Made by a program: the position numbers and the translations under genes
IMG/VR virus record: IMGVR_UViG_3300031565_000018
Span: 1-64,000 of that record
DNA length: 64,000 bases
DNA from: a virus
Strand: one strand, 5' to 3'
Notes under the pieces: model-generated
The model's database searches: none
What the model was told of the DNA's origin: nothing
The model's input: the letters and a program-made list of their open reading frames with translations, nothing else
Part shown: one piece after another, positions 25,886-49,846 of the stretch
Layout of the letters: every line of letters starts with the position of its first letter
Numbering within the stretch: position 1 is the stretch's first letter

Positions 25886-26461
25886 GTGACAGATTTCATA
25901 GGTAGGTATTATCTAAAAAACCATTCAGTATGCGACAAGGCAATAGATTGGTTCGAGCGTAATAAAGACAAGGCAAGCGAGGGAAAAATAATATCGTCTA
26001 AAGGAGAGGTGCTAGTAGACGATAAAGTTAAATGCTCAGACGATATTAAAGGTTATTTAAACGACTTCTATCAGCTCGGTGATGAGTTTAAAACTTTATT
26101 AGATTTCTTATGGGGTAGTGTACAAAATTATATTTCTGAATACAGCGAACTGGCTTCCATAAATTTTCATATGCCAGACGTTATTAATTTTCAAAAATAC
26201 ACTCCTCCTTTGGGAGGCTATAAAATATTTCACTACGAGAGACCAAGCAGAGCAGTAAGTAACCGCTGTTTAGTTTGGATGATTTACTTAAACACTGTTG
26301 AAGCTGGAGGAGGTACTGAGTTTAAATACTACAAGCACACAGAAAAAGCAGAGAAAGGTAAGTTACTTATATGGCCCCCAGATTTTACCCATACACATAG
26401 GGGTATCCCATCACCAACAGAGGTAAAATATATTTTAACTGGGTGGTATGACCTCTATTAA
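25886..26461 (+). CDS. 2OG-Fe(II) oxygenase 2
   Basis: GTG-initiated, 191 residues. The core reads GGYKIFHYERPSR, giving an HxE metal pair, then LVWMIYLNTVEAGGGTEF, a typical prolyl-4-hydroxylase-like strand and loop, and the distal His in DFTHTHRGIPSPTEVKYILT with Lys as the likely 2-oxoglutarate contact. An HxE in place of HxD occurs in relatives found in cyanophages. The sequence is AT-rich. The substrate is unknown. Confidence 0.78.
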   Translation: MTDFIGRYYLKNHSVCDKAIDWFERNKDKASEGKIISSKGEVLVDDKVKCSDDIKGYLNDFYQLGDEFKTLLDFLWGSVQNYISEYSELASINFHMPDVINFQKYTPPLGGYKIFHYERPSRAVSNRCLVWMIYLNTVEAGGGTEFKYYKHTEKAEKGKLLIWPPDFTHTHRGIPSPTEVKYILTGWYDLY

Positions 26462-27496: not shown

Positions 27497-27919
27497 TTAC
27501 GCAGTCAGCGGTAATAACTGCTGAGCCCAAGGCGTAGGTACTAAAACGGGAGGAAGAATCTCAGGCTGGTTAACCCAGCGCAGGATTCTATCCTCCCTTT
27601 CTAATGACCAAAAATCTTGAGCTCTGTACCACTCAAACCAAGGTTGTGAACTCTTCTCAAGGTTGCAGGCGCCGCAAGCGGCAATCAAGTTCTCCTTGGT
27701 CGTCTTGCCTCCACGCGCCTTAGGGACAACGTGGTCCAGAGTCGAAGGCTTGGATCTACCGCAGTAGGCGCAGCAGCCCCACTCATCTAGTAGTTGTCGT
27801 CGGAACTTCTTACGTGCAGACCTTTTTTGTAAACATGTGAGATCAAAAATAAGGTCCCGTTCGCTCACAAATGTGAGTGCGGCTGAAATCAGTCTATCAA
27901 AAGTATGTCCAGGAAACAA
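27497..27919 (-). CDS. HNH endonuclease (McrA-like, zinc-binding)
   Basis: A 140-residue protein with a full HNH core: CCAYCGRSKPSTLDHVVPKA, RGGKTTKENLIAACGACNLE. The two CxxC pairs bind zinc; the catalytic His is in 'LDHVVP' and the Asn in 'ENLIAAC'. It is probably an active nuclease, either a homing type or involved in genome cleavage. It overlaps the 2OG oxygenase gene by 23 bases. Confidence 0.85.
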   Translation of the reverse strand: MFPGHTFDRLISAALTFVSERDLIFDLTCLQKRSARKKFRRQLLDEWGCCAYCGRSKPSTLDHVVPKARGGKTTKENLIAACGACNLEKSSQPWFEWYRAQDFWSLEREDRILRWVNQPEILPPVLVPTPWAQQLLPLTA

Positions 27920-28499
27920 AGGAATCCCTCGTACCCTTCTTGACAGGTTTCACTTCGTGTTTATATAAAAACGAAGAAGGAAATATAAGTAACTCCCCCT
28001 CATCAGTTAAGAACTGTTCATTACTTTCTTTAAAATTCATAAAAAACTCACCACCTTCTTCAGCTTTATTCACAAGGCCCACGATGGATAAAACAGGTAC
28101 ACCTCTAGCATTGCCATCAAACAGACTTGTAATGTGATCAACATGTGGCTTCATTAATTGACCCTTTTCATACCTATTAAGTCGCACTGCAGATACTGTG
28201 GGAGTGTAACTACTCGGAAAAATGCTGTAATAAGAGCTTAAACAGTCAAATATAAAGGTTAAAAGTTCTGGATACTCTCCCCAGCAATTTGATATTAGAG
28301 GTTCGACGTCATAATTAGACTCAATTTCGGAAGTACCTTCCCTACCGCTACGAATATAGTAATGCTTATCCCAGGTGCGATAAGAGTCACTAAAAAGACT
28401 TCGAGCGTACTCTAATAAACTAGAAGTCATTCTATACGTTTTAACAAAAGACGATAAGTCTTCAAGAGGCATAGCACCGATTTCGTTTAATGGTATCAT
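27897..28499 (-). CDS. 2OG-Fe(II) oxygenase 3 (PKHD-like)
   Basis: A 200-residue protein with RLNRYEKGQLMKPHVDHITS (HxD metal pair), a strand GVPVLSIVGLVNKAEEGGEF, and the distal ligand in FLYKHEVKPVKKGTRDSFV, where Arg should bind 2-oxoglutarate. This set matches prolyl/lysyl hydroxylase-type enzymes. It is very AT-rich relative to the virion genes, and divergent from the next oxygenase gene 21 bp away. Confidence 0.82.
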   Translation of the reverse strand: MIPLNEIGAMPLEDLSSFVKTYRMTSSLLEYARSLFSDSYRTWDKHYYIRSGREGTSEIESNYDVEPLISNCWGEYPELLTFIFDCLSSYYSIFPSSYTPTVSAVRLNRYEKGQLMKPHVDHITSLFDGNARGVPVLSIVGLVNKAEEGGEFFMNFKESNEQFLTDEGELLIFPSSFLYKHEVKPVKKGTRDSFVSWTYF

Positions 28500-28520: not shown

Positions 28521-29132
28521 ATGAAGAAAGTAGGTATCCTGCCTCTAGAGCTATATAAATTCAAGCTGCCTAAAAAACTTTTTGAGTCAGTAAGAGCTAG
28601 GTGCCACGCTATACCTTGGGATAATGTCGAAACTCGCGATAAAAAGCCCCATCATGGGAAGTCTTACCCATATGAAGGTGGGTTACACGAAAACGAAGAC
28701 TGGCTGGACCTTACCAAGTGGGCACAGAAGAAGGTCGATGCTGTAGTAAAAGATCTTGACTACCGTCAGATGGAACAATTAAAAATTAATCTGATGTGGG
28801 CTAATAGAAGTGAATATCTTCAATGGCATCATCCTCACACACATCCAAATTCTATCCTGAGCGGGATTATTTACATACAGGGTTTGAGTGGTGCTACGTG
28901 GTTTAGCAGGCAGAGCGATTACGACATCCAAAACAGATATCATGTGCTGTTACCGGACGATGCACGGATCATCCATAAACAAGAACCAGAAGAAGGCGTT
29001 TTACTTATATTCCCATCTACTTTGTATCACTCAGCAGAAGAGAATATGAGCGCCGTTGATCGAATCACTATTAGTTTTAATACTTTCTTTAAAGGGAAAA
29101 TAGGAACCCTTTTAACCGAATTAATTATATAA
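28521..29132 (+). CDS. 2OG-Fe(II) oxygenase 4 (putative 2OG-FeII_Oxy_5 type)
   Basis: A 203-residue plus-strand protein. HHPHTHPNSILSGIIYIQ carries the metal-binding His pair and the 'SG..Y' strand of the cyanophage-type putative 2OG family; the distal His is in TLYHSAEENMS and Arg in DRITISFNTF. It pairs divergently with oxygenase 3, convergently with the tail-collar block. The substrate is unknown; such enzymes are common cyanophage accessory genes. Confidence 0.75.
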   Translation: MKKVGILPLELYKFKLPKKLFESVRARCHAIPWDNVETRDKKPHHGKSYPYEGGLHENEDWLDLTKWAQKKVDAVVKDLDYRQMEQLKINLMWANRSEYLQWHHPHTHPNSILSGIIYIQGLSGATWFSRQSDYDIQNRYHVLLPDDARIIHKQEPEEGVLLIFPSTLYHSAEENMSAVDRITISFNTFFKGKIGTLLTELII

Positions 29133-29136
29133 AAGC

Positions 29137-29658
29137 TCAGCGCAGACAAATGTAAGGGTAAGCCTTCATGTGCGCAAGGTCGAAATCGGTAGCGTCTGTA
29201 GCACCCTGCACATGAGCGATGACACCGTCGAAACCCATACTAGTTGAAGTAATAGGTGTAGCGCTAGCGCCCGTGACTCCAAAAACAGGACCACCTGAGC
29301 CTGCGAACGTAAAAGGTGCAGAGCTTCCAGACGGGTGTGCGTGAGAAGCCATGTTGGCCACTTGATACGAGCCAATCTGAACACCGGACGGTGCTACACC
29401 AGATAAGGCAATACGCTTAGTGGAGTCATGCGCTACACCACGGCTATAGTCATGGCCACGGATATAGATATTGCTCAGGTTAGGTAGATGGATGTTGCTC
29501 GCATCACTACCGTAGGTGCCTACGGGCCAGATTTCGCTCAGTTCAAAGTACGTAGCACGCGGAAACGACTGACCGTTGCAAAGAGCGAACTCGCGACCAT
29601 CAGCGGTGGTAAAGGTCGTCCCTAAGTTAACCGACGAAAGATGAATCTGTCCCTTCAT
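29137..29658 (-). CDS. Tail-collar-domain fibre protein
   Basis: A 173-residue virion protein with the phage tail collar motif: GREFALCNGQSFPRATYFEL, then IHLPNLSNIYIRG, followed by an Ala/Gly/Ser-rich beta region with HAH in ASHAHPSG. Collar domains sit at the tips of short tail fibres and often carry adhesion or chaperone-dependent folding roles. It ends the minus-strand fibre block. Confidence 0.85.
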   Translation of the reverse strand: MKGQIHLSSVNLGTTFTTADGREFALCNGQSFPRATYFELSEIWPVGTYGSDASNIHLPNLSNIYIRGHDYSRGVAHDSTKRIALSGVAPSGVQIGSYQVANMASHAHPSGSSAPFTFAGSGGPVFGVTGASATPITSTSMGFDGVIAHVQGATDATDFDLAHMKAYPYICLR

Positions 29659-29676: not shown

Positions 29677-30738
29677 TTATTCTACAACCAAGACGTAGAC
29701 ACAGGTTATGTTGTCAGGTCTGCTTTCTTCATTAGCTCCGATGCTAGAGAGCGAGCTGTCGGGAGGGTTCTGACTTGAAGTAGCACCAGTAGGTCCACCG
29801 CTTCTCTGACCTGTGTAATAGAAACTGGCTGACGTATAGCCGTGAATATGCGAGGCTATATTGTTAGGCAAAAATCCGCTCGGGCCAGCGGAATGTCCAG
29901 AAGGAACTTGAATATCGTAGTAGGGGGCGCTAATAAAGAGTCCCCGCAGATCAGGAGCGTTGAAAGTTGTCGACCCATCTCCCTGGCCAAAAAGATTGCC
30001 GACTAACGTATAAAGATGGGAGTAAGTTGTCCTGCTAAGCTCCTGCCCACTACAGATAATTGTATTAGGAGGAAGCGCAGCAGCTACTTCAGCAACATCC
30101 GGGATTAATAACGGGGCGATTAAACCCACGGGGGATCTGACATCCGCTGTGGCGATAAGGGGGACCATTTCCATGGTCGCCCCTCGATTACCTTCTTTAG
30201 TGCCTTGGAGTTTACTGCTAGAACCAAAGTTACCGGCACCGTATCCTCCAGGACTTCCTGGGCTAGCGCCGCCGCCAGACCAGCTATTGGGCTGGCTAAA
30301 AGTATGTGTATGGTAAGGAAGACGGCCCGTCCCCGAGGCGTTTGTAATCGTAAGACTAGCTTCGTAAGGAAAGGGTTTTAAGTGAATATAGGGTTTCTGA
30401 AGATTAGGTAAATTGAAAGTAGTTAAACCATCCCCTGCGCCGTAATTCTCACCGATGGAGTCGAAAAGATCAGAATATGTAGTACGGGAAACCGCTTGCC
30501 CACTTGGAATAAGGTACCCACTGGGAAGAGACTCAAATGCTGCACCAGAAGCAGCAGCGTAAGTGTATTCTCCAATATTATTGAAAATATACACACTAGG
30601 GAAGCTAACCTTAGGCCACTCGCCAAGTCCTCTCTGGCGTGCAATCTCTGAAGGCGCTTGCCACGAACCGGTAGCAGCGCTCGAACTAGGATCGCTCGCT
30701 GAAGGATTACCAGTGTATCCGCCGTACTTCTTGACCAT
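29677..30738 (-). CDS. Fibre protein with two tail-collar domains
   Basis: A 353-residue protein with two tandem collar modules: first near 80-115 (GQAVSRTTYSDLFDSIGENY then TTFNLPNL), second near 230-270 (GQELSRTTYSHLYTLVGNLF then TTFNAPDLRGLF). Each is followed by Gly/Ser-rich segments containing His pairs (YHTHTF, SHIHGY), typical of metal-binding fibre tips. The duplication with diverged sequence points to an old internal repeat. Its start overlaps the previous gene's stop by one base. Confidence 0.88.
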   Translation of the reverse strand: MVKKYGGYTGNPSASDPSSSAATGSWQAPSEIARQRGLGEWPKVSFPSVYIFNNIGEYTYAAASGAAFESLPSGYLIPSGQAVSRTTYSDLFDSIGENYGAGDGLTTFNLPNLQKPYIHLKPFPYEASLTITNASGTGRLPYHTHTFSQPNSWSGGGASPGSPGGYGAGNFGSSSKLQGTKEGNRGATMEMVPLIATADVRSPVGLIAPLLIPDVAEVAAALPPNTIICSGQELSRTTYSHLYTLVGNLFGQGDGSTTFNAPDLRGLFISAPYYDIQVPSGHSAGPSGFLPNNIASHIHGYTSASFYYTGQRSGGPTGATSSQNPPDSSLSSIGANEESRPDNITCVYVLVVE

Positions 30739-31508
30739 CAGAAGAACTTGTAGTTTGTTCCGATGATGAAATTATAGACTAGATCCATACCGGAAAGTAC
30801 TGAGGAGCCCGAGGGATAGCAGGGATTATAGATAACTTGACCGGAAGGATCGATCCCGCTATAAACAGCTATACCGTTGGGATAGTCATATATGTGCTGA
30901 CCCTCCATCGGCTTTCTGTTTAAAACCCAATCAGATGGTGGGATAAAATACGGAGCCCATTGAGGGTCCAAACCGATAATAAAACCGTAAGTCTCGTAGG
31001 TATATTTCCAAAAGTCTTTTTGCTTCTCAAAAGCGTCAGTAAGATACTCTTTATAAACAGCGTTTCTAGTGATAGGAGGAAGATTAAAAGAAGGAAGGTC
31101 GGCGTTAGTTAATAACTTAGAGGAGTTAAGAAGAACCCAAGCAGCATCTTTGATGTTATTTAAACAGACAAGAAACTCAGGAGTAGCGTCAGTCAGAATA
31201 GCGTTGTTAATACTCTCTATAACAGACTGAATGTACTGTCGAATACGAGCGTCTTCAAAAATCGGATCAGGTGACGTATCCCCAACGACAACAATAAAAG
31301 TTTTAGTGTCGGCGTCCCACGCAACAGTGTCAGTGCCCGAAACGGAAGGTACCTCAAAAGGACCTTCATATCCGGCAGCGTTTAAGTCCTCCTTAGTACA
31401 AGAATAGGTATAACGGGTATTACCGTTAGGAAGACGGATCCTTAGTGGAGGATACGAAGGAGTATCCGCACCCGGTGCTAAGAAAAACTGATTTCTAAAA
31501 TCCGCCAT
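30738..31508 (-). CDS. Probable tail fibre or baseplate protein, 256 aa
   Basis: A protein with a beta-rich N-terminus (MADFRNQFFLAPGADTPSYP, then RYTYSCTKEDLNAAGYEGPF) and a helical middle (IRQYIQSVIESINNAI). It lies between two small structural genes and the collar proteins, so it is likely an attachment or linker component of the fibre complex. Family not recognised. Confidence 0.6.
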   Translation of the reverse strand: MADFRNQFFLAPGADTPSYPPLRIRLPNGNTRYTYSCTKEDLNAAGYEGPFEVPSVSGTDTVAWDADTKTFIVVVGDTSPDPIFEDARIRQYIQSVIESINNAILTDATPEFLVCLNNIKDAAWVLLNSSKLLTNADLPSFNLPPITRNAVYKEYLTDAFEKQKDFWKYTYETYGFIIGLDPQWAPYFIPPSDWVLNRKPMEGQHIYDYPNGIAVYSGIDPSGQVIYNPCYPSGSSVLSGMDLVYNFIIGTNYKFF

Positions 31509-31510
31509 TG

Positions 31511-31834
31511 TTACACCACAACGTAGGAAATCTGAACATCAACGGTGCCGCTTGTACTCGTAAGCAGATTCAGCTTACGTCCGCTAGGAAGAACGTACTT
31601 ATTGCCGAGGACGTCGAGGTTGGAGTCGGCAGGGATAGCAATCGTATAAGCTAGATAACCTTCATCGTTATTAGATGCATCTCTACGGACCACGGTGATG
31701 TCCGTGTTGTCAGTACCGTTAGTATTAGCGGCTAAAATACTAAGAACAATAGTGCTGTCGGAATCGGACGTGACAGCAGTGATCTCCGCCGCATCATCTA
31801 CGTTCTTAACAACTTGATTATAGAAAGTTGCCAT
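31511..31834 (-). CDS. Small beta-sandwich virion protein, 107 aa
   Basis: A beta-rich protein (MATFYNQVVKNVDDAAEITA) whose C-terminal KYVLPSGRKLNLLTSTSG resembles small phage tail or head proteins that form one beta-sandwich. It is separated by two bases from the next gene in the same direction and is part of the fibre block. Confidence 0.65.
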   Translation of the reverse strand: MATFYNQVVKNVDDAAEITAVTSDSDSTIVLSILAANTNGTDNTDITVVRRDASNNDEGYLAYTIAIPADSNLDVLGNKYVLPSGRKLNLLTSTSGTVDVQISYVVV

Positions 31835-31886: not shown

Positions 31887-33392
31887 TCAAGCTAGACCCA
31901 TGATTAAGCCGATAAGTTGATCCGCATCAACAGGAGGATTGTTAATAATTAGAGTCAAAGCTGCGTTGCCAGATGCAAGAGCTGTGTCTGCATCTTGGAT
32001 AAGAGCATTCCCTGAAGCTAACGCTGTCTCTGCGTTGAGTACCGCAGTTTCAGCGTAACTAATACCTCCAAGACCACTCGCAATCGCCGTGTTGGAAGTA
32101 CTAATTGCGGCTAAACCACTGACAATCGCAGTGTCAGCTGTCGAAATAGCCGCAAGAGCATCGGTTATACCTGCATTACCCGACGCTTGAGCAGTTTCTA
32201 CAAGTACTAAAGCGGCATTACCCGAAGCAAGAGCAACAGAGGCAACCTCCAGAGACGCATTACCAGAAGCAATGGGTGCAGGGGTTAACTCAAGCGCAGC
32301 GTTACCAGAAGCTTGAGCAGTAGCCGATAAAGGATACGAAGCCTGACCCGAAGCAATCGCTACGGAGGCGATAGCTTCCCCAGCTAGACCAGAGGCAATC
32401 GCCTCGATCGAATTCTCAATCGAATCGTCAGAAATGACGAAGACGAATGACGTTTTGACTACTGCATCGTCACCACGGTCGATAGCTTCAACCGAATTTG
32501 CCAGAGCTAAGTTACCTGAGGCCTGCGCCTGAATAGCCTGGAACACAGCTGCGTTACCAGAAGCCAAAGCTGTGCTTGCATCAGTAACTGCAGCGCTTCC
32601 TGACGCAAAGGCAATACTTGCATTAAGTAAGGAGGCATTACCAGAAGCAAGCGCTACGGCACTATCAGCAAGAGCTGCAGCACCCGAAGCAACTGCCACG
32701 GCTGCAACGGTGATTCCGGCAGAACCGGAAGCAATTGCCGCCTGAGAATCAACAATCGCAGCATCACCAGAGGCAATGGTCGACTGGAGATCAAATAGAG
32801 CTGCGTTACCGGAGGCTAAAGCGGAACCTGCGATAAAAGAGGCACCAAAACCTGACGCGGCAGCGATATTTGCGTCGACAAGAGCAGCGTTCCCAGACGA
32901 CTGAGCGACTGCGGCATCAACAAGTGCTGCGTTTCCAGATGCGAGTGCGATCTCGTTGAACGGAATGCCCAGATTGCCTGAAGCCTGAGCGATCTCCCCT
33001 GATGCAAGTGCGTTATTAGAAGTAGTTTGCCCAACAAGAGCTTCGGAAATAGCAGCGTTTCCGGAAGCAAGCGAAGTCTGACTCGCAGCAGACGCCGCTA
33101 GACCTGATGCAAGAGCAATTTCCGAGAAGGCTATCGCAGCAGTACCAGAGGCAGTCGCTACATCACCTGTAGCTAGATCAAGACCGTCAAGTCCGATCTT
33201 TCCATCAGCTGTATATAAGAGACCTGAGGTCCCAGCAACTACAAGCTGTACAAACCCATCGGTACCTAAAGGAACTAGTCCACCACCTAATCCACTTCCA
33301 AGGACTAAGTCGCCAACAATAGGGATTACGTCCTCGTCGGTATGCTCCGTAATGAAGCCACCGGAATAAATTAGGCCGCGACGAGCAGTCAT
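31887..33392 (-). CDS. Fibre protein B with 29 x 14-residue repeats
   Basis: A 501-residue protein: N-terminal domain 1-78, then residues 79-484 made of exactly 29 consecutive 14-residue units with consensus A-L-A-S-G-N-A-A-L-x5, then a 17-residue tail ending QLIGLIMGLA. Two units near 303-330 are strongly diverged yet keep the register. It is a paralog of the next gene (33394-34905), with matching N-terminal pattern (GSGLGGG, then IGLDG). The repeat is probably a rod, as beta-solenoid or coiled coil. It belongs to the tail-fibre block; no catalytic motif is present. Confidence 0.85.
   Translation of the reverse strand: MTARRGLIYSGGFITEHTDEDVIPIVGDLVLGSGLGGGLVPLGTDGFVQLVVAGTSGLLYTADGKIGLDGLDLATGDVATASGTAAIAFSEIALASGLAASAASQTSLASGNAAISEALVGQTTSNNALASGEIAQASGNLGIPFNEIALASGNAALVDAAVAQSSGNAALVDANIAAASGFGASFIAGSALASGNAALFDLQSTIASGDAAIVDSQAAIASGSAGITVAAVAVASGAAALADSAVALASGNASLLNASIAFASGSAAVTDASTALASGNAAVFQAIQAQASGNLALANSVEAIDRGDDAVVKTSFVFVISDDSIENSIEAIASGLAGEAIASVAIASGQASYPLSATAQASGNAALELTPAPIASGNASLEVASVALASGNAALVLVETAQASGNAGITDALAAISTADTAIVSGLAAISTSNTAIASGLGGISYAETAVLNAETALASGNALIQDADTALASGNAALTLIINNPPVDADQLIGLIMGLA
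31941..33158 (-). repeat. 29 coding repeats of 42 bp (protein period 14 aa)
   Basis: The 1,218 bp encode 29 in-register units of protein 31887-33392. Codons vary freely between units, so the period is held by selection on the protein rather than by recent DNA duplication. Confidence 0.85.
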
Positions 33393-33393
33393 A

Positions 33394-34905
33394 TCACGAG
33401 AGGGCGATGATCAAACCGATGGCTTCACCGGTCTGAAGCCCAGGGTTAGCTGCGTAAGCCTCAAGTGCTGCGTTTCCGGATGCTTGAGCTTCGGGAACAA
33501 TGACGAGACCGGCGTTACCCGAAGCAAGAGCCGTATTACCGACAACGATGGCGGCGTCCCCAGAAGCAAGTGCAGTATTAGCAAGGACTAATGCAGCATT
33601 ACCAGAAGACTGAGCGACTGCAGCATCAACAATCGCGGCATCCCCGGAAGCCTGAGCAGTCTGAGCTAACAGAATCCCCGCATTACCCGAAGAAAGAGCA
33701 ACCAGACCATCGACAATCGCGGCGTTTCCAGACGCAAGTGCGATGATTGCTAACTCAATACCAGCGTTACCAGAAGCAGCTGCGCCTGCAAGATCGGCAA
33801 GCGCCGCATTACCGGAAGCAAAAGCAGCTGCAGCAGTCGCTAGAGCAGCATTACCGGAGGCTAAAGCGTCAAGAGAAACGACGACTGAAGCGTTACCAGA
33901 AGCCTGAGCACTCTGTGAGAAACTTAAGGCAGCATTACCAGAGGCAAGCGCCGTGTCTGCCACAGCGAGGGCAGCCGCACCCGAGGCAAGAGCGACGTTC
34001 GAGAGAGTTACAGCTGCATTGCCAGAGGCAAGAGCAGATGCCGAATCGACTAGAGCCGCATTACCGGAAGCAAGAGCGGCCTGAGAGTCAAACAGCGCAG
34101 CGTTACCAGAAGCCAGTGCAGCGACTGAAACTTCAACAGCAGCAATACCAGAAGCAAGAGCTTCTGACGAGTTAGTTAAGGCAGCGTTGCCTGAGGCAAG
34201 CGCGTCCACAGAGATCGAGAGACTCGCGTTACCGGAACTGAGAGCTGCGACAGCGTCGGTAAGGGCAGCGTTACCCGAGGAAAGTGCAGTATTACTGTCG
34301 GCTAATGCAGCGTTGCCAGAGGCAAGTGCCTCAACAGAAACAACTAGACCAGCATTACCCGAAGCAAGAGCCGTAGAGGCGAGGAGAATCCCAGCGTTTC
34401 CGGAAGCTAAGGCGGTTGCACTGTCGACAAGACCCGCGTTACCCGAGGCAAGCGCTGCAACACCAATAGATAGGGAGGCGTTACCGGAACTTAAAGCCGA
34501 TTCAGCAACGAGTAAGGCAGCATTACCAGAGGCAATCGCAGTCGCAGCCTCTACAAGACCAGCGTTACCAGAAGAAAGAGCTACTGCAGAATCAACTAAA
34601 GCTGCATTACCAGAAGCAAGAGCAGCAGTAGCGTTACTTAAAGCTGCATTACCGGAAGCGAGGGCATCTTCCGAGCGCTTTAAAGCGACACCATCAATAG
34701 CTAATTCGTCACCGGCAAAAATTAAACCGCTTGCCGAAGCAGTTAAAGCGACATCTAAACGAATGGTGGCATCAGTATTACCGCCACCGACTAGGCCACT
34801 ACCAGCAGTAAGTTCTCCGCCAGAAGCAGTGGTGATGATGCTGTCACCAAAAGGGAGCTCAGCTAACGCTCCACTAACTAAAACAACTGGCCTTCTTAAA
34901 ACCAT
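33394..34905 (-). CDS. Fibre protein A with 29 x 14-residue repeats
   Basis: A 503-residue protein: N-terminal domain 1-80 (with GSGLVGGG and LAIDGVAL), then residues 81-486 as exactly 29 units of 14 residues (A-L-A-S-G-N-A-A-L-x5, with very few substitutions at the SGN core), then a 17-residue tail ending AIGLIIALS. It ends one base before the paralog at 31887-33392. The equal unit number in the two diverged paralogs suggests length matching. A trimeric tail-fibre shaft or rod is the most likely role. No enzymatic motif. Confidence 0.88.
   Translation of the reverse strand: MVLRRPVVLVSGALAELPFGDSIITTASGGELTAGSGLVGGGNTDATIRLDVALTASASGLIFAGDELAIDGVALKRSEDALASGNAALSNATAALASGNAALVDSAVALSSGNAGLVEAATAIASGNAALLVAESALSSGNASLSIGVAALASGNAGLVDSATALASGNAGILLASTALASGNAGLVVSVEALASGNAALADSNTALSSGNAALTDAVAALSSGNASLSISVDALASGNAALTNSSEALASGIAAVEVSVAALASGNAALFDSQAALASGNAALVDSASALASGNAAVTLSNVALASGAAALAVADTALASGNAALSFSQSAQASGNASVVVSLDALASGNAALATAAAAFASGNAALADLAGAAASGNAGIELAIIALASGNAAIVDGLVALSSGNAGILLAQTAQASGDAAIVDAAVAQSSGNAALVLANTALASGDAAIVVGNTALASGNAGLVIVPEAQASGNAALEAYAANPGLQTGEAIGLIIALS
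33448..34665 (-). repeat. 29 coding repeats of 42 bp (protein period 14 aa)
   Basis: The 1,218 bp encode the 29 units of protein 33394-34905, from codon 81 to codon 486. On the opposite strand the periodicity creates long spurious open frames. Synonymous variation among units is high. Confidence 0.88.
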
Positions 34906-34916
34906 GATCTAGTCTC

Positions 34917-35432
34917 CTAGCCCCCAGTATAAAGAAGAACAGGTGGAGCAATCTCCACACTAAGTTGAGTTGACGTCAAAGCCAAACCAACTGGTGTAGC
35001 TGCCGCATAAGCATTCGAGCCAGAACCTGTAACGGTGCCCGAAGCTGTCTCATAGCGGACAACTTCGCCCTGATATTTAGAAAGGTAGTAGTACTGACCA
35101 GGGATTAAAGCTGTTTCTGCAGTGATATTTCTTGCGCTAAGCGTAACCACGCCGTCTAAATTAATGATTACCGAGCTTCCGTTCGAAGCAGCGGCACTAG
35201 CGAAGCCAATCGGTGAGAACTGAGTTACGTCAGCTCCACTAATTGCTATAGCAGGAACAACAAAGTTTCCGCTTGCCGAAACACATTCACCAGCAACTAA
35301 ATCTCCACCCGCCGTAAGCGTTGCTTCAGGAGCTGGATTAGTTACGACACCTTGCCCGTTAGCAAGGTATACAGTTGTACCGTCAGCTTGGTAACTGGTG
35401 TAATTTCGGTTGAAAATCGACCTGTTTGACAC
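34917..35432 (-). CDS. Fibre-associated beta-rich virion protein, 171 aa
   Basis: A protein rich in V, A, S and G with alternating strands (MSNRSIFNRNYTSYQADGTT; GQYYYLSKYQGEVVRYETAS). The '..PGQyYYlSk..G....y' segment is shared in style with the next gene (GHRYYVSPSGAY), a pattern of small beta-barrel fibre proteins. It lies immediately upstream of the twin repeat fibres, so it may be their adaptor. Confidence 0.65.
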   Translation of the reverse strand: MSNRSIFNRNYTSYQADGTTVYLANGQGVVTNPAPEATLTAGGDLVAGECVSASGNFVVPAIAISGADVTQFSPIGFASAAASNGSSVIINLDGVVTLSARNITAETALIPGQYYYLSKYQGEVVRYETASGTVTGSGSNAYAAATPVGLALTSTQLSVEIAPPVLLYTGG

Positions 35433-35470: not shown

Positions 35471-35863
35471 TCAAAGAGCTCCACTGACAACATATCTAGG
35501 CTCAACTGGTGAAACTTTTAAGGTTGTCGGACTAATAGCTGTGCCGATCTGAGTTAAATAAGAACCAGAAACTCCGATCTGATTAAACTCAACAATAAAG
35601 GTGTCGTAATCAACTGCGTAAGCTCCACTAGGACTTACGTAGTACCGATGACCAGGATTCAGGCCACTAAAAGCTTGAGCACCAGCGTCAGAGACCACAC
35701 GGCACAAAGTCCCGGCTGACACTGCATCTACAGCGACACCAACAACCGTCGCCGAAGGGATACCCGAGGGATGAGCGGGAATAATTTGACCAGAAGTAGT
35801 GGTGCTGATCGTGACCGCATCACCAAGAGCGATGGCTTCAGCAGCGATAAACGATAAAAGCAC
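35471..35863 (-). CDS. Small fibre or decoration protein, 130 aa
   Basis: GTG-initiated at 35863. Beta-rich, with AIALGDAVTISTTTSGQIIP, a pattern like phage decoration proteins ('a.al..Gd.v..'), and PGHRYYVSPSGAY shared with its downstream neighbour. Probably one beta-barrel per chain. Function inferred from position in the fibre block. Confidence 0.6.
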   Translation of the reverse strand: MLLSFIAAEAIALGDAVTISTTTSGQIIPAHPSGIPSATVVGVAVDAVSAGTLCRVVSDAGAQAFSGLNPGHRYYVSPSGAYAVDYDTFIVEFNQIGVSGSYLTQIGTAISPTTLKVSPVEPRYVVSGAL

Positions 35864-36035: not shown

Positions 36036-37358
36036 TTAGCCGAGACCCATGATCAGGCCAATAGTCTCACCCTCAGAGACACCCGCCGTAATATCTGTCC
36101 ACTGAGTGCCATTCCAGTAACGAATAGTACTGGTAGAAGGCTCAGTCCACAGAGTGCCATCAACTGCGCTAACGGGTGCGGTGTCACCGTAGACAGGGGT
36201 ACGAGATGCGGCGGATTCGTACCAGCCACTCGTAGCTGCGTCGTAGATGAACAGAGAGCCCATGAGCGTGTTGAACCACAGGCTGCCATCGAGAGGCGGA
36301 GCGTTGAACCCGCCGGTACCAGAAGGTGGTACTTCGCTCTTGATGGCCAGAGCCTCAGCATTAGCGATGTACCAATCGGGCTCGGCGACGTCGTTGCCCG
36401 AGGCATAGATGAACAGACGACCTTCGTTAGTGTCGAACCAAAGGGAACCAGCGAGGTAGTTGTCTCCAGGTTCACCGGACACCGTAACGACAGCAGCTCC
36501 AGCTTCAGCCGTGCTGTTGTATGTAACAAAGGAACCGGAGTAACCAACCGTGACGTTGGCGCCGCCGAGCGAACCGACATTAATTTCTCTATAGGTGCCG
36601 CTAGTTGAGATAGCAGTACCAGAGCCGGGAGCTAATTTATTTTCTAAGAAGATCTGCGGACCAGAGTAAGTAACACCGATTCCAGGCAATCCGAGAATGC
36701 CAACGTCGACAATTTGATAATCACCACTAGAGCTAACAGTTGTACCAGAACCAGCAACAAGTAACTGCTGAGCTTGGCCGGAGATAACGCCTACACCAGC
36801 ACCGGTATAAGAGAAATCGACGGAGCCTTGACCGATCAGGTCAGTCGAAACAATCGCGGTATCTCCACTAGCAGTAATGCTGATTCCGTTACCACCAACA
36901 AGACCGCTAACAACAGCAACCGCACCCTCGTTCGAACCGGAGATCGCAATGAGCGTACCGTCATACTCAACAGAGTTGTTCCCTTGGCCAGCAATATTTA
37001 CATCAAATATCGTGGCGGCTCCGCTGTAAGTAGGAGTAACGCCGGACCCAGGTAAAGACTGGGTGATCAGGCTGGAAACAATTTCGTAGTTACCGCTCGA
37101 AACGATGCTGATACCTGAACCAGCAACGATATCCGCACCAGCGATAATCCCGCTGGCCGTTAGGTTTAAGTCTTCAAGCGCACGAACTACTCCTTCAAAG
37201 TTGTAGGTGTAACCTACGGGACACCGAGAGAAAGAAGCAGTTCCCACGCCACTCAGGGTTGCAATAATTTCGTCAATGACATCAACGATGCCTTTGAACG
37301 AGTGTTCGTGTAGCGCACGGTAGTTACTCCCGTGAACCGGGCAAGGATCAAGAGCCAT
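36036..37358 (-). CDS. Large fibre protein with SG-rich beta repeats
   Basis: A 440-residue protein. After a helical N-terminus (MALDPCPVHGSNYRALHEHS), it has several irregular beta modules with 'aGsGi.i..SG.y.iv' (IVAGSGISIVSSGNYEIVSS; VAGSGTTVSSSGDYQIVDVG), then three 'GslWfdt..g.lfiy' modules near 310-420 (GSLWFDTNEGRLFIY, GSLWFNTLMGSLFIY), and the same tail as the twin fibres (GETIGLIMGLG). It is the first gene of the fibre block and probably links the fibres to the virion. Confidence 0.75.
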   Translation of the reverse strand: MALDPCPVHGSNYRALHEHSFKGIVDVIDEIIATLSGVGTASFSRCPVGYTYNFEGVVRALEDLNLTASGIIAGADIVAGSGISIVSSGNYEIVSSLITQSLPGSGVTPTYSGAATIFDVNIAGQGNNSVEYDGTLIAISGSNEGAVAVVSGLVGGNGISITASGDTAIVSTDLIGQGSVDFSYTGAGVGVISGQAQQLLVAGSGTTVSSSGDYQIVDVGILGLPGIGVTYSGPQIFLENKLAPGSGTAISTSGTYREINVGSLGGANVTVGYSGSFVTYNSTAEAGAAVVTVSGEPGDNYLAGSLWFDTNEGRLFIYASGNDVAEPDWYIANAEALAIKSEVPPSGTGGFNAPPLDGSLWFNTLMGSLFIYDAATSGWYESAASRTPVYGDTAPVSAVDGTLWTEPSTSTIRYWNGTQWTDITAGVSEGETIGLIMGLG

Positions 37359-43585: not shown

Positions 43586-44125
43586 ATGACTTCCTCCAGC
43601 GCTTTAGATATGTTCGCAGAAGCTTTGGAAGCCCCTAAGGCTGAGGTCCTTACCGAGGAAGTCATCATCAAGAAGGAGACCAGCGTAGATAATCTCGTCT
43701 ATGCCACGGTCTCCTTTTCTTCGTATCTGTATCAGTTAAACACCCAAGCGCATCTCCTGCACTTAAACGTCGAGTGCCGAGAGTTTCTTGCTCTCCATAA
43801 GTTTCTGAAGAAACAGTACGAACAACACATCGCGGACTTTGATCTGCTTGCCGAAATTGTCCGGAGCATGGATTATCTGCTGCCGTCTTGTCAGTGCGGG
43901 CTTATGGACTCGTACAAGAAATTTAAGAGCGTTAAGTCCTATGACGCTCGTGAAGGTCTAATGATCTACACCAAGAACCTAGAAGACGGAGGGATGATGG
44001 CAAAGGACTTGACCGAACAAGCCCGCGCTACCGGTACTCCCGATCTAGAAAACGCCGCTGCAGGTGTCTGCGGAAACCTCTTTAAAGGAGCGTGGATGCT
44101 TAAAGCGACTCTGCGTAACGCTTAA
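43586..44125 (+). CDS. Dps-like ferritin with complete ferroxidase site
   Basis: A 179-residue protein with the Dps core helices. The ferroxidase ligands appear at canonical spacing: His59 and His71 (HLLHLNVECREFLALHKFL), Asp86 and Glu90 (HIADFDLLAEIV), matching E. coli Dps His51, His63, Asp78 and Glu82. Also conserved are Asn two residues after the first His and Phe eight residues after. Dps dodecamers oxidise and store iron with peroxide and can protect DNA. The N-terminal 30 residues are acidic, unlike DNA-binding Dps tails. A later Cys pair (SCQCG) is unusual. A protective role during infection is inferred. Confidence 0.78.
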   Translation: MTSSSALDMFAEALEAPKAEVLTEEVIIKKETSVDNLVYATVSFSSYLYQLNTQAHLLHLNVECREFLALHKFLKKQYEQHIADFDLLAEIVRSMDYLLPSCQCGLMDSYKKFKSVKSYDAREGLMIYTKNLEDGGMMAKDLTEQARATGTPDLENAAAGVCGNLFKGAWMLKATLRNA

Positions 44126-44766
44126 ACCAAAATCCAACCGCCGTTCGCGGATACGTATAAACCGCTTACGCCAGCGTTGAGATAAACAACGCCTCCGGTA
44201 TAAGCTGCGGGTAGAGCACCTACCACGTTGATTCCAGAAGCTAAGTTAGCTTCGAGAGCACCGGAGGAAGACACAGCTCCGATCGCTCCCGAAGCAGCGA
44301 GAGCTCCGGAAGCAATAAGAGCTCCAATGGCTCCCGAGGCCAGTAGAGCTCCTGACGCACTGACGGCTCCTAAAGAACCTGAAGCGACGATTGCTGAGTT
44401 TGCGACAATTGCGCCAGAGGCAATCGTGACGTTTGCAGACGCTGCGTTATCTGCAAAAGCTGCACCGACCTTCTGCCAGGACGCTCCGTCCCAGACTTTC
44501 ATGTAATAAGCCGAGCTTGAGGAGTCAACCCAGAGCTCACCTACAGAGTTTCCCGTAGATCCCACAGGGCTTGAGTTAGGCGCATTAGTCCCGTAGAAAG
44601 TGGGGCCAATCTTCCTAATTGCACCAGCAGAATCTTTGAAGTACATCCCTGGTTCGGCGCCACCGAAGCTCAAGGCAGGCTCACCCGTCTGTACCGTCGC
44701 TGTATCCGGACGATCGGCAGAATTACCAGATCTCTTTAAGAGAAGAATGACAGGTGTAGAAGCCAT
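44122..44766 (-). CDS. Fibre protein with 15-residue ASG repeats
   Basis: A 214-residue protein. The N-terminal part (LLLKRSGNSADRPDTATVQT, then GELWVDSSSSAYYMKVWDG) is of the tail-fibre type. Residues about 118-180 form alternating 'ASGA(I/L)GA(V/L).ASGAL.' units with a 15-residue period, unlike the 14-residue period of the twin fibres. It ends with a beta segment (GLYVSANGGWILV). Its 3' end overlaps the convergent Dps-like gene by four bases. Confidence 0.75.
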   Translation of the reverse strand: MASTPVILLLKRSGNSADRPDTATVQTGEPALSFGGAEPGMYFKDSAGAIRKIGPTFYGTNAPNSSPVGSTGNSVGELWVDSSSSAYYMKVWDGASWQKVGAAFADNAASANVTIASGAIVANSAIVASGSLGAVSASGALLASGAIGALIASGALAASGAIGAVSSSGALEANLASGINVVGALPAAYTGGVVYLNAGVSGLYVSANGGWILV

Positions 44767-44769
44767 GAG

Positions 44770-46311
44770 TTAATAAGTGCCTCCGTTGATGTTTGACGGT
44801 TGTGTAACAGGCGGGATTAGAGCACCGTTAGCGTAAGAACCACCATCGAAGATTAAGGCGGAACCGCTCGTAAGCACCCCTGATGCGTAGGTTCCCCCAT
44901 CGTACTTCTGAAGGGTTGCCGGATCGATCGGTTCAAACGGGTTGTACTGATCAAACTGGAACATTTCGAATCCGCTTGCGGACATTGGACTCGAAATACC
45001 AGAAACCAACGTGTCAAAGTTCAGAGTTTTGACCATCGTTGGGTGCATGTCCGCATACATCATGTGGACAGGCACGGTGTTTTGAGAGGGAGAGTACTTT
45101 TCCCACCACCGGAGATGCTCTTGTCTCTTCTCAAACGTTGTCTGTTTTTCTAAGTTCCTCTGGAATTCCTCGCGGTAGCGATCATCCATTGGTTCATCGC
45201 TTGGCTGATCGAGCCAAACGTAAGGGAACATATCCTTACCAAATCGATTTTGTAGATCCCAGAAAGACGCATAGATGTGTTTGCACCAGCGCGGAGCAAA
45301 GTAAAGAAGATTCGGATCCGAGTAAGTAACTGCGCTATCGGTGTAGCTGGGTAAGTTGATTAGCTTCTTGACGTAAAGGAAACCAAAATCTCTTGTAAAA
45401 CCGGGAAGATCCCTCGAAGGTGAAGTTCGGTCAGCAAAATAATCAGACCCAGCGTCGTAGCTCCCTGGTTTTAAATCTTGCGGCAGCGTGTAGGGATAGC
45501 GCCTCTTAAGGTTGTACTTATATAAATTGAAGTCTTCCCGAGCCAGGTAATCCGGGCAGTTACAACCGAAACGCATCTCCGTGGTGAAGTAATCACCGAC
45601 AGTCGGAAGACCAGCAGGAGCCTGGAGAGTTTCGTTATTTATGACGGACCAGCTGTTATCCGTATCAATAGAAATAAATATGCTGTTAAAAATTGGAGCG
45701 AACGAGGGGACTAAGGGTGTAGTTCCATTGCCCACGCCGACAACTTTGTAGTTGTTGTACGTGGTTTTCTCGGTGCCATCAGAAGCAAATCGATCAGAGA
45801 TAACCTCCCCCGTGAAGAAAGAAATTGGCGGTCCAAAGTTACTGGAAAGTTGAACCGCGTAAACATTGCCTGAAGTCTGCGTTACTGACTGGATCGAGTA
45901 ACCGAAATCAAGAAAGTTGAAAGAGTCCCTCGGTCGGATCGCAACCATCCGCATGGCCATATCCTGGCTCATGGATGGGTACATGTAACAGGCACCAGGA
46001 AGGGCAGTCCCTATGCCAGCAGTGCCTGAGATGAAGTATCTAAATGAGTAATTAAGACCTACATACGCTTGGTTAGCGTACATATAGAGCTCATAACCAC
46101 GCCTCCAACGGGTCCACATGGACGCGTAGTTATAGTCAAAAAGGATGCTGAAATCCTTTAAGTTAAAGTCAGGACGGAATTTTTGCTTGAAAGGTAAAGG
46201 GCGGTTTAGCTTTGAAGCGTTGCTAGCGCCCTGAATCTTGTCAAACGCGAAGCTTGACTTTTTTGGCTGGTGTCCCTTCCAGCCAAAGTCGTTTCCGCGC
46301 TTGGGTGCCAT
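44770..46311 (-). CDS. Virion protein with SWIM-like CxC...CxH motif, 513 aa
   Basis: A 513-residue structural protein rich in aromatics (FSILFDYNYASMWTRWRRGY). It contains GCNCPDYLAREDF and, about 80 residues later, RWCKHIYASFWDL, giving CxC...CxH as in SWIM zinc fingers. The C-terminus has repeats KYDGGTYASG and FDGGSYANG and ends NINGGTY. By position between fibre and internal proteins it is probably a tail or tail-fibre component. Zinc binding is inferred from the motif only. Confidence 0.65.
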   Translation of the reverse strand: MAPKRGNDFGWKGHQPKKSSFAFDKIQGASNASKLNRPLPFKQKFRPDFNLKDFSILFDYNYASMWTRWRRGYELYMYANQAYVGLNYSFRYFISGTAGIGTALPGACYMYPSMSQDMAMRMVAIRPRDSFNFLDFGYSIQSVTQTSGNVYAVQLSSNFGPPISFFTGEVISDRFASDGTEKTTYNNYKVVGVGNGTTPLVPSFAPIFNSIFISIDTDNSWSVINNETLQAPAGLPTVGDYFTTEMRFGCNCPDYLAREDFNLYKYNLKRRYPYTLPQDLKPGSYDAGSDYFADRTSPSRDLPGFTRDFGFLYVKKLINLPSYTDSAVTYSDPNLLYFAPRWCKHIYASFWDLQNRFGKDMFPYVWLDQPSDEPMDDRYREEFQRNLEKQTTFEKRQEHLRWWEKYSPSQNTVPVHMMYADMHPTMVKTLNFDTLVSGISSPMSASGFEMFQFDQYNPFEPIDPATLQKYDGGTYASGVLTSGSALIFDGGSYANGALIPPVTQPSNINGGTY

Positions 46312-49225: not shown

Positions 49226-49846
49226 TTAGCGCCAATTAGCGTAAAAATAGAGTCGATCAGAACGAGAGACATCCGGAGGACCCGGAATAGCTTGAATAAA
49301 CTCTCCGCCGCTTCTCTCAAAACGGTAGCGAGAGGCCACGGGATCTCGATAGTTAGCCACATAGAGCATCTGTGCCAAGCGATCACACTCGTAGAGATAG
49401 TTCTCGCGCCAGATACGCGCAGTCTCACGTTTATCTTGAATATTGATCGAGCGGCTGACGTCGCCAAGAATCGTTTCCTGGCGGCTAGTTGCGCGACCTG
49501 TTGCTAATTCAGTCAGACGCTCAGCGTCTTCGCAACGTTCGACCTGTTGAACAATTTTGTCGTAATAAAACTCACTCGGAATGCTGTTGCAAGCCTCAAG
49601 AAGTCTTGCGTAATCGCCAGCCGGGACTGTGGCGATGTTATACGCTAAATGGTACGCAACACGACTGAAATTAAAGTCATCAAGCGCATAACCAAAGACC
49701 TGCGCCGGATTTCGCGTCAGCTGATTAACAGCTGAGTAGATAATTTCTCGCTTAGACGCGTCAGTGGTCGTGGCGTTAAATACAACGCCTTGTTGAGCTA
49801 AATAACTCTGAATCTGTTCAAGTTCGTTCGGAGTTAATTGCGCCAC
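49226..49846 (-). CDS. Structural-region protein, 206 aa
   Basis: A helical protein (MAQLTPNELEQIQSYLAQQG) rich in Y, R and E with many charged helices (ENYLYECDRLAQMLYVANYR). It lies between the HhH protein and the 590-aa protein. Position suggests a head-tail connector or internal protein; no motif supports either. Confidence 0.6.
   Translation of the reverse strand: MAQLTPNELEQIQSYLAQQGVVFNATTTDASKREIIYSAVNQLTRNPAQVFGYALDDFNFSRVAYHLAYNIATVPAGDYARLLEACNSIPSEFYYDKIVQQVERCEDAERLTELATGRATSRQETILGDVSRSINIQDKRETARIWRENYLYECDRLAQMLYVANYRDPVASRYRFERSGGEFIQAIPGPPDVSRSDRLYFYANWR

Follow-up and report, generated by a model that had tools for sequence, protein, structure and literature searches.

Phage tail length is set by tape-measure proteins, and to our knowledge the setting of adsorption fiber length is little understood by comparison. 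The locus described here raises this question, since two adjacent genes on its minus strand, termed A and B, encode paralogous proteins whose repeat arrays are built from exactly the same number of units. Why should two such proteins have the same length, and is that length maintained by selection? Our preferred explanation, to which we give slightly better than even confidence, is that A and B are co-translated stalk subunits of one adsorption fiber of an S-EIV1-like cyanophage and that their lengths are both selected and matched.

Source phage

The analyzed stretch of 64,000 nucleotides (hereafter, the window) comes from a virus record of 66,477 bases. The window carries recognizable genes for a terminase, a portal-like protein, a major head protein, Collar-domain proteins, and an endolysin. 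Its portal-like protein matches Synechococcus phage S-EIV1 (KJ410740) at 47% identity over 78% of the query (E 5e-174) and has no match in the phage collection beyond S-EIV1, so the virus is an S-EIV1-like cyanophage. Besides the homologous portal-like gene, several structural genes are common to both phages; the products of 49226-49846 and 44770-46311 are 54% and 23% identical to S-EIV1, respectively. A periodicity scan of the S-EIV1 genome (lag-14 repeats together with SG) detected no A/B-like gene, and stalk genes of this type do not define the S-EIV1-like lineage. Elsewhere in the window, a 45-base tandem repeat of 2.4 copies (44253-44359) lies within the minor-tail-like gene 44122-44766.

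Anatomy of the two repeat genes

Gene B (33394..34905, minus strand) encodes a putative fiber-stalk protein of 503 aa, an assignment based upon its translation, its unit count, and its orthologs of the same length, while gene A (31887..33392, minus strand) encodes its 501-aa paralog. The original prediction had divided the proteins into an N-domain of 78 (A) or 80 (B) residues, 29 units of 14 residues, and a 17-residue tail, and direct translation yields precisely this division. In B, the N-domain (RRPVVLVSGALAELPFGDS...AGSGLVGGG...DG; 34666..34905), which by alignment is common to distant single-gene relatives and which presumably serves as an anchor, is followed by the array (33448..34665; consensus ALASGNAAL plus five residues) and the tail NPGLQTGEAIGLIIALS (33397..33447). 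The corresponding parts of A, all on the same strand, are the N-domain (33159..33392), which by translation and ortholog comparison comprises 78 aa here and 79 aa in most relatives, the 406-aa array (31941..33158), and the tail NPPVDADQLIGLIMGLA (31890..31940). From a DG motif (D69-G70 in A, D71-G72 in B) to the C-terminus, both proteins contain 433 residues and align with each other without a gap; therefore, the equal count is independent of the choice of domain boundaries. Gene A starts 1 nt past the B stop codon (TGATATG), and this stop and start are 1-2 nt apart in 9 of the 9 loci examined.

The units of both proteins had also been described as being in perfect register. This is correct for B, in which every one of the 29 units has SG at positions 4-5, and requires amendment for A, in which SG is in phase in 23 of 29. 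At units 4, 25, and 26 of A, the motif lies 7 residues out of phase (SG spacings of 21, 7, 14, and 21), while units 17-18 (residues 303-330; 32403..32486, minus strand) are charged and lack SG. As originally noted, translation finds the latter units altered without any insertion or deletion. They are a conserved feature of all A orthologs and not a product of decay. The half-period shifts are likewise conserved among A orthologs, with the exception of the most distant one (L022). Due to these shifts and to the occurrence of half-units in relatives, the elementary step of the array is the heptad, with “29 units” amounting to 58 heptads. On the opposite strand, long open frames run antisense to the B array (33747-34175 and 34187-34912, plus strand); these are a by-product of the codon pattern and not evidence for genes.

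Array length among orthologs

Scans of viral contigs recovered relatives on 13-14 contigs, one of which is identical to the window across both proteins, while no relative was found in the genome contig collection. All intact B sequences (at least 10, of which 9 are distinct) are 503 aa in length, all intact A sequences (10, of which 9 are distinct) are 501 or 502 aa, and every array comprises exactly 406 aa; the broken frames of A in L020 and of both A and B in L023 were left out of these counts. Not a single indel separates the arrays of the nine distinct A or the nine distinct B proteins, and the only A indel is located in the N-domain. This holds for pairs with array identities as low as 0.63 (B) and 0.46 (A). 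Where calculable, dN/dS is 0.05-0.30 and synonymous sites are near saturation, while units within an array are only 46% (A) or 58% (B) identical at the DNA level, which agrees with the wide synonymous variation originally noted. In the same genomes, protein C, encoded farther upstream in the gene block, varies from 440 to 463 aa, and three genes downstream of A (30738-31508, 29677-30738, and 29137-29658) exhibit 2.7-3.9 gap events per 100 residues versus none in the arrays. In line with the original proposal of selection on length, the absence of array indels among these orthologs lends good support to such selection within this clade and suggests that fiber length is selected. As for the broken frames (L020:2011-3508 for A; L023:7990-11022 for A and B), sequencing or assembly errors are likely, since L023 has a TGA stop in C as well.

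The stalk in the wider family

More distant relatives were reached via the 171-aa protein encoded next to B and via the fiber gene of relative L051. Like the window, they encode the N-domain (RRPLVLVSG..SELPPGD) and the 14-residue ALASGNAAL unit, as exemplified by the fiber genes of uncultured S-EIV1-like phages (L045, L048, L050, and L051), with a few relatives having another N-domain. Their unit numbers are about 3, 3.5, 5, 6, 6.5, 7, 7.5, 8, 12, and 13.5. Given this wide range, half-units included, it is evident that units can be gained and lost and that the number 29 does not characterize the family as a whole. Varying unit numbers, which the original prediction had set against its own claim of length selection, are encountered outside the clade and not inside it. 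Many distant relatives, such as L051, also carry a C-terminal domain that matches the PSS2 fiber protein and the S-CBP2 tail fiber. This speaks for the original identification of A and B as fiber proteins, as relatives that combine this N-domain with this repeat have C-terminal domains resembling those of cyanophage fibers. The window differs from these relatives in having two adjacent genes with far more units each, as well as a 17-residue tail where theirs have a fiber-tip domain, and no such tip domain was found in the window.

Judged from these comparisons, the array is a length-plastic stalk that within this clade has grown long, been doubled, and become fixed, and the A/B system would constitute phage fiber stalks of a new form: long, doubled, and length-locked. 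The contrast between a stalk module that is length-variable across a phage family and one that is locked and matched in two paralogs of a single clade makes length selection testable. Multiple repeat proteins also occur elsewhere in the family. Relative L049 encodes two in one phage with unequal unit numbers, which weighs against the preferred reading, although one of them has a different N-domain, while L043 (8520-13373) encodes three tandem paralogs of three stalk units each, two of which have C-terminal parts of ~500 aa (624- and 626-aa ORFs).

Origin of the equal unit number

According to hhalign, the N-domain of A is homologous to that of B (probability 97%, E 1.2e-10). In comparisons of orthologous arrays, each unit matches its counterpart (z 7-18), with A arrays at 0.46-0.48 identity still yielding z of about 8. 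Between A and B, the aligned register is not preferred (z -0.1 to -1.6) and no shared unit ancestry was detected at any offset or in blocks of 4-15 units, under conditions in which positive controls from the most distant ortholog (L022) were recovered for windows of at least 6 units. Since A and B exhibit no unit-by-unit correspondence in any register, there is no visible sign that they inherited their equal length. The two arrays either reached one length by separate growth or have had the ancestral trace fully erased. The former scenario would argue strongly for matched length.

In the latter scenario, a single duplication of a 29-unit ancestor was followed by the erasure of unit similarity, and the number simply persisted because a long helical rod generally tolerates indels poorly, in which case neither a ruler nor A/B pairing is needed. 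The homologous N-domains are in agreement with this, as are the indel-free arrays of both proteins and the array DNA units, which are too diverged for slippage. Moreover, with B being more homogeneous than A, a resampling of variable columns is conceivable. We nonetheless consider an inherited number somewhat unlikely, because the most diverged A orthologs keep their unit correspondence, whereas A and B have none at any offset, and because arrays of the wider family readily change length, even by half-units.

If the arrays did grow independently to exactly 58 heptads, they could have done so in register within one hetero-oligomeric fiber, each limiting the other. A and B would then form a two-chain molecular ruler that fixes fiber length, with the charged break of A (units 17-18) acting as a hinge or docking site. 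This elaborate version seems rather unlikely to us, and the per-unit charges of A and B exhibit neither in-register correlation nor complementarity. The lack of charge correlation and of unit similarity is more readily expected if A and B form two separate homo-oligomeric fibers of equal length that join the same two virion layers, such that length is selected and the two proteins never share a rod. Separate fibers would also account for the special A units that have no counterpart in B and for the differing N-domains, as that of A lacks the VLVSGALAELP motif. We regard this arrangement as possible, albeit doubtful, given that the near-abutting frames and the C-tail common to both proteins favor joint assembly, without proving it.

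Predicted fold of the arrays

In both arrays, heptad positions 1 and 5 are Ala, Gly, or Ser in 89-100% of cases and position 2 is a large hydrophobic residue in 74-89%, amounting to one large hydrophobic per heptad. The arrays are acidic (net charges of -27 and -22) and nearly devoid of Lys and Arg. Their hydropathy spectra are dominated by period 7 with a weak period of 3.5 (1.7-2.0 times the mean), so the arrays are no textbook coiled coils. AlphaFold models B as one helix with breaks at low confidence (residues 73-485; mean pLDDT 52) and the array of the 8-unit relative L051 as one helix spanning residues 28-142 (pLDDT 70-92 over ~45-120), bearing in mind that AlphaFold tends toward helix for Ala-rich sequence. 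The original prediction had left a choice between a helical rod and a short solenoid. Because the modeled arrays are continuous helices, the former is favored, which at the standard coiled-coil rise of 0.148 nm per residue would give 406 residues a length of ~60 nm rather than the 14 nm of the solenoid. Side-tail fiber stalks of the lambda Stf type similarly consist of Ala/Ser/Thr-rich heptads with few large hydrophobics and are helical by prediction, although they differ from the window arrays, which have a strict 14-residue unit with Gly.

A left-handed beta-roll, in which each 14-residue unit makes one turn of a stiff ~14 nm rod, would resemble YadA-type heads, which likewise have a 14-residue period with Gly at a fixed place and whose AQASGN motifs resemble the array residues. 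Power at period 2.0 in the B hydropathy spectrum and a Pfam LbR_Ice_bind match in relative L050 (E 0.0012, below cut-off) also point in this direction. However, we consider a beta-roll very improbable, since the short relative is confidently predicted as a continuous helix, heptad steps occur in both the window and its relatives, and A and B have no beta-roll match, YadA_head included, even at E 10. Other searches were similarly unproductive. Scanning A and B against Pfam, PHROGs, and NCBIfam returned nothing meaningful, with no PHROG or Pfam match at E 0.001 and no Pfam phage-fiber repeat even at E 10. The xxxLxxG heptad repeat (TIGR03057) scored solely in L051, and there below the curated cut-off (7.7 versus 18.6 bits), tblastn of B against phage records gave one composition-driven match, and PDB sequence searches gave only chance-level matches to helical, coiled-coil, or designed proteins.

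Gene context and the common C-tail

In order of transcription on the minus strand, the block comprises C, 35471-35863, 34917-35432, B, A, 31511-31834, 30738-31508, 29677-30738, and 29137-29658. Lysozyme- and minor-tail-type genes are located upstream of it, Collar-domain proteins downstream, and the endolysin farther downstream. The 30738-31508, 29677-30738, and 29137-29658 genes all diverge rapidly with many indels, and the latter two match the phage tail Collar domain; such fast-evolving Collar-type proteins are likely candidates for the receptor-facing parts. Directly upstream of B, 34917-35432 (minus strand) encodes the aforementioned 171-aa protein, a neighbor kept throughout the wider family. 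Its weak resemblance to a capsid cement protein (Phage_cement_2, E 0.0026, below cut-off) keeps a capsid location in consideration, with A and B as head fibers or decoration instead of tail fibers. This is improbable in our judgment, as the block lies between tail/lysozyme-type genes and the endolysin, tail Collar-domain proteins come after it, and the relatives carry fiber-type C-domains.

Gene C (36036..37358, minus strand) encodes a 440-aa protein with weak similarity to cyanophage tail-fiber proteins. A, B, and C all end in the motif xIGLIxxL (EGETIGLIMGLG in C), which ends no other protein of the window, and a search of phage records with the C-tail peptide yielded no match. In distant relatives, the motif is missing from both C and the stalk protein; the C-tail of C is present only in the clade having A and B. 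It follows that the tail was gained or kept by the three proteins together and therefore probably marks a common joint. The similarity between C and distant C proteins lies mainly across residues 200-423.

Proposed arrangement of the fiber

Returning to the preferred reading of a single fiber, the conserved N-domain would anchor A and B to the virion, while the 58-heptad Ala/Gly/Ser-rich array would form a continuous alpha-helical rod, most likely a tight coiled coil whose packing relies on the small side chains of heptad positions 1 and 5. Through their short hydrophobic C-tails, A, B, and C would bring their ends together at the common joint, which in turn would carry the fast-evolving downstream proteins. 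We infer the presence of A and B in virions, their anchoring end, and their oligomeric state. Coupled translation would produce A and B side by side, and it is plausible that they also lie side by side or co-assemble. Because both bridge an equal distance, probably as parts of one fiber, unit gain or loss in either protein would be selected against.

Three genes of the 2OG-Fe(II) oxygenase type (PF13640, PF13759) are located near the fiber genes, at 25886-26461 (plus strand), 27897-28499 (minus strand), and 28521-29132 (plus strand), and two of the three are also found beside the fiber genes of relative L019. Such enzymes might modify fiber residues, for example the conserved Asn of SGN.
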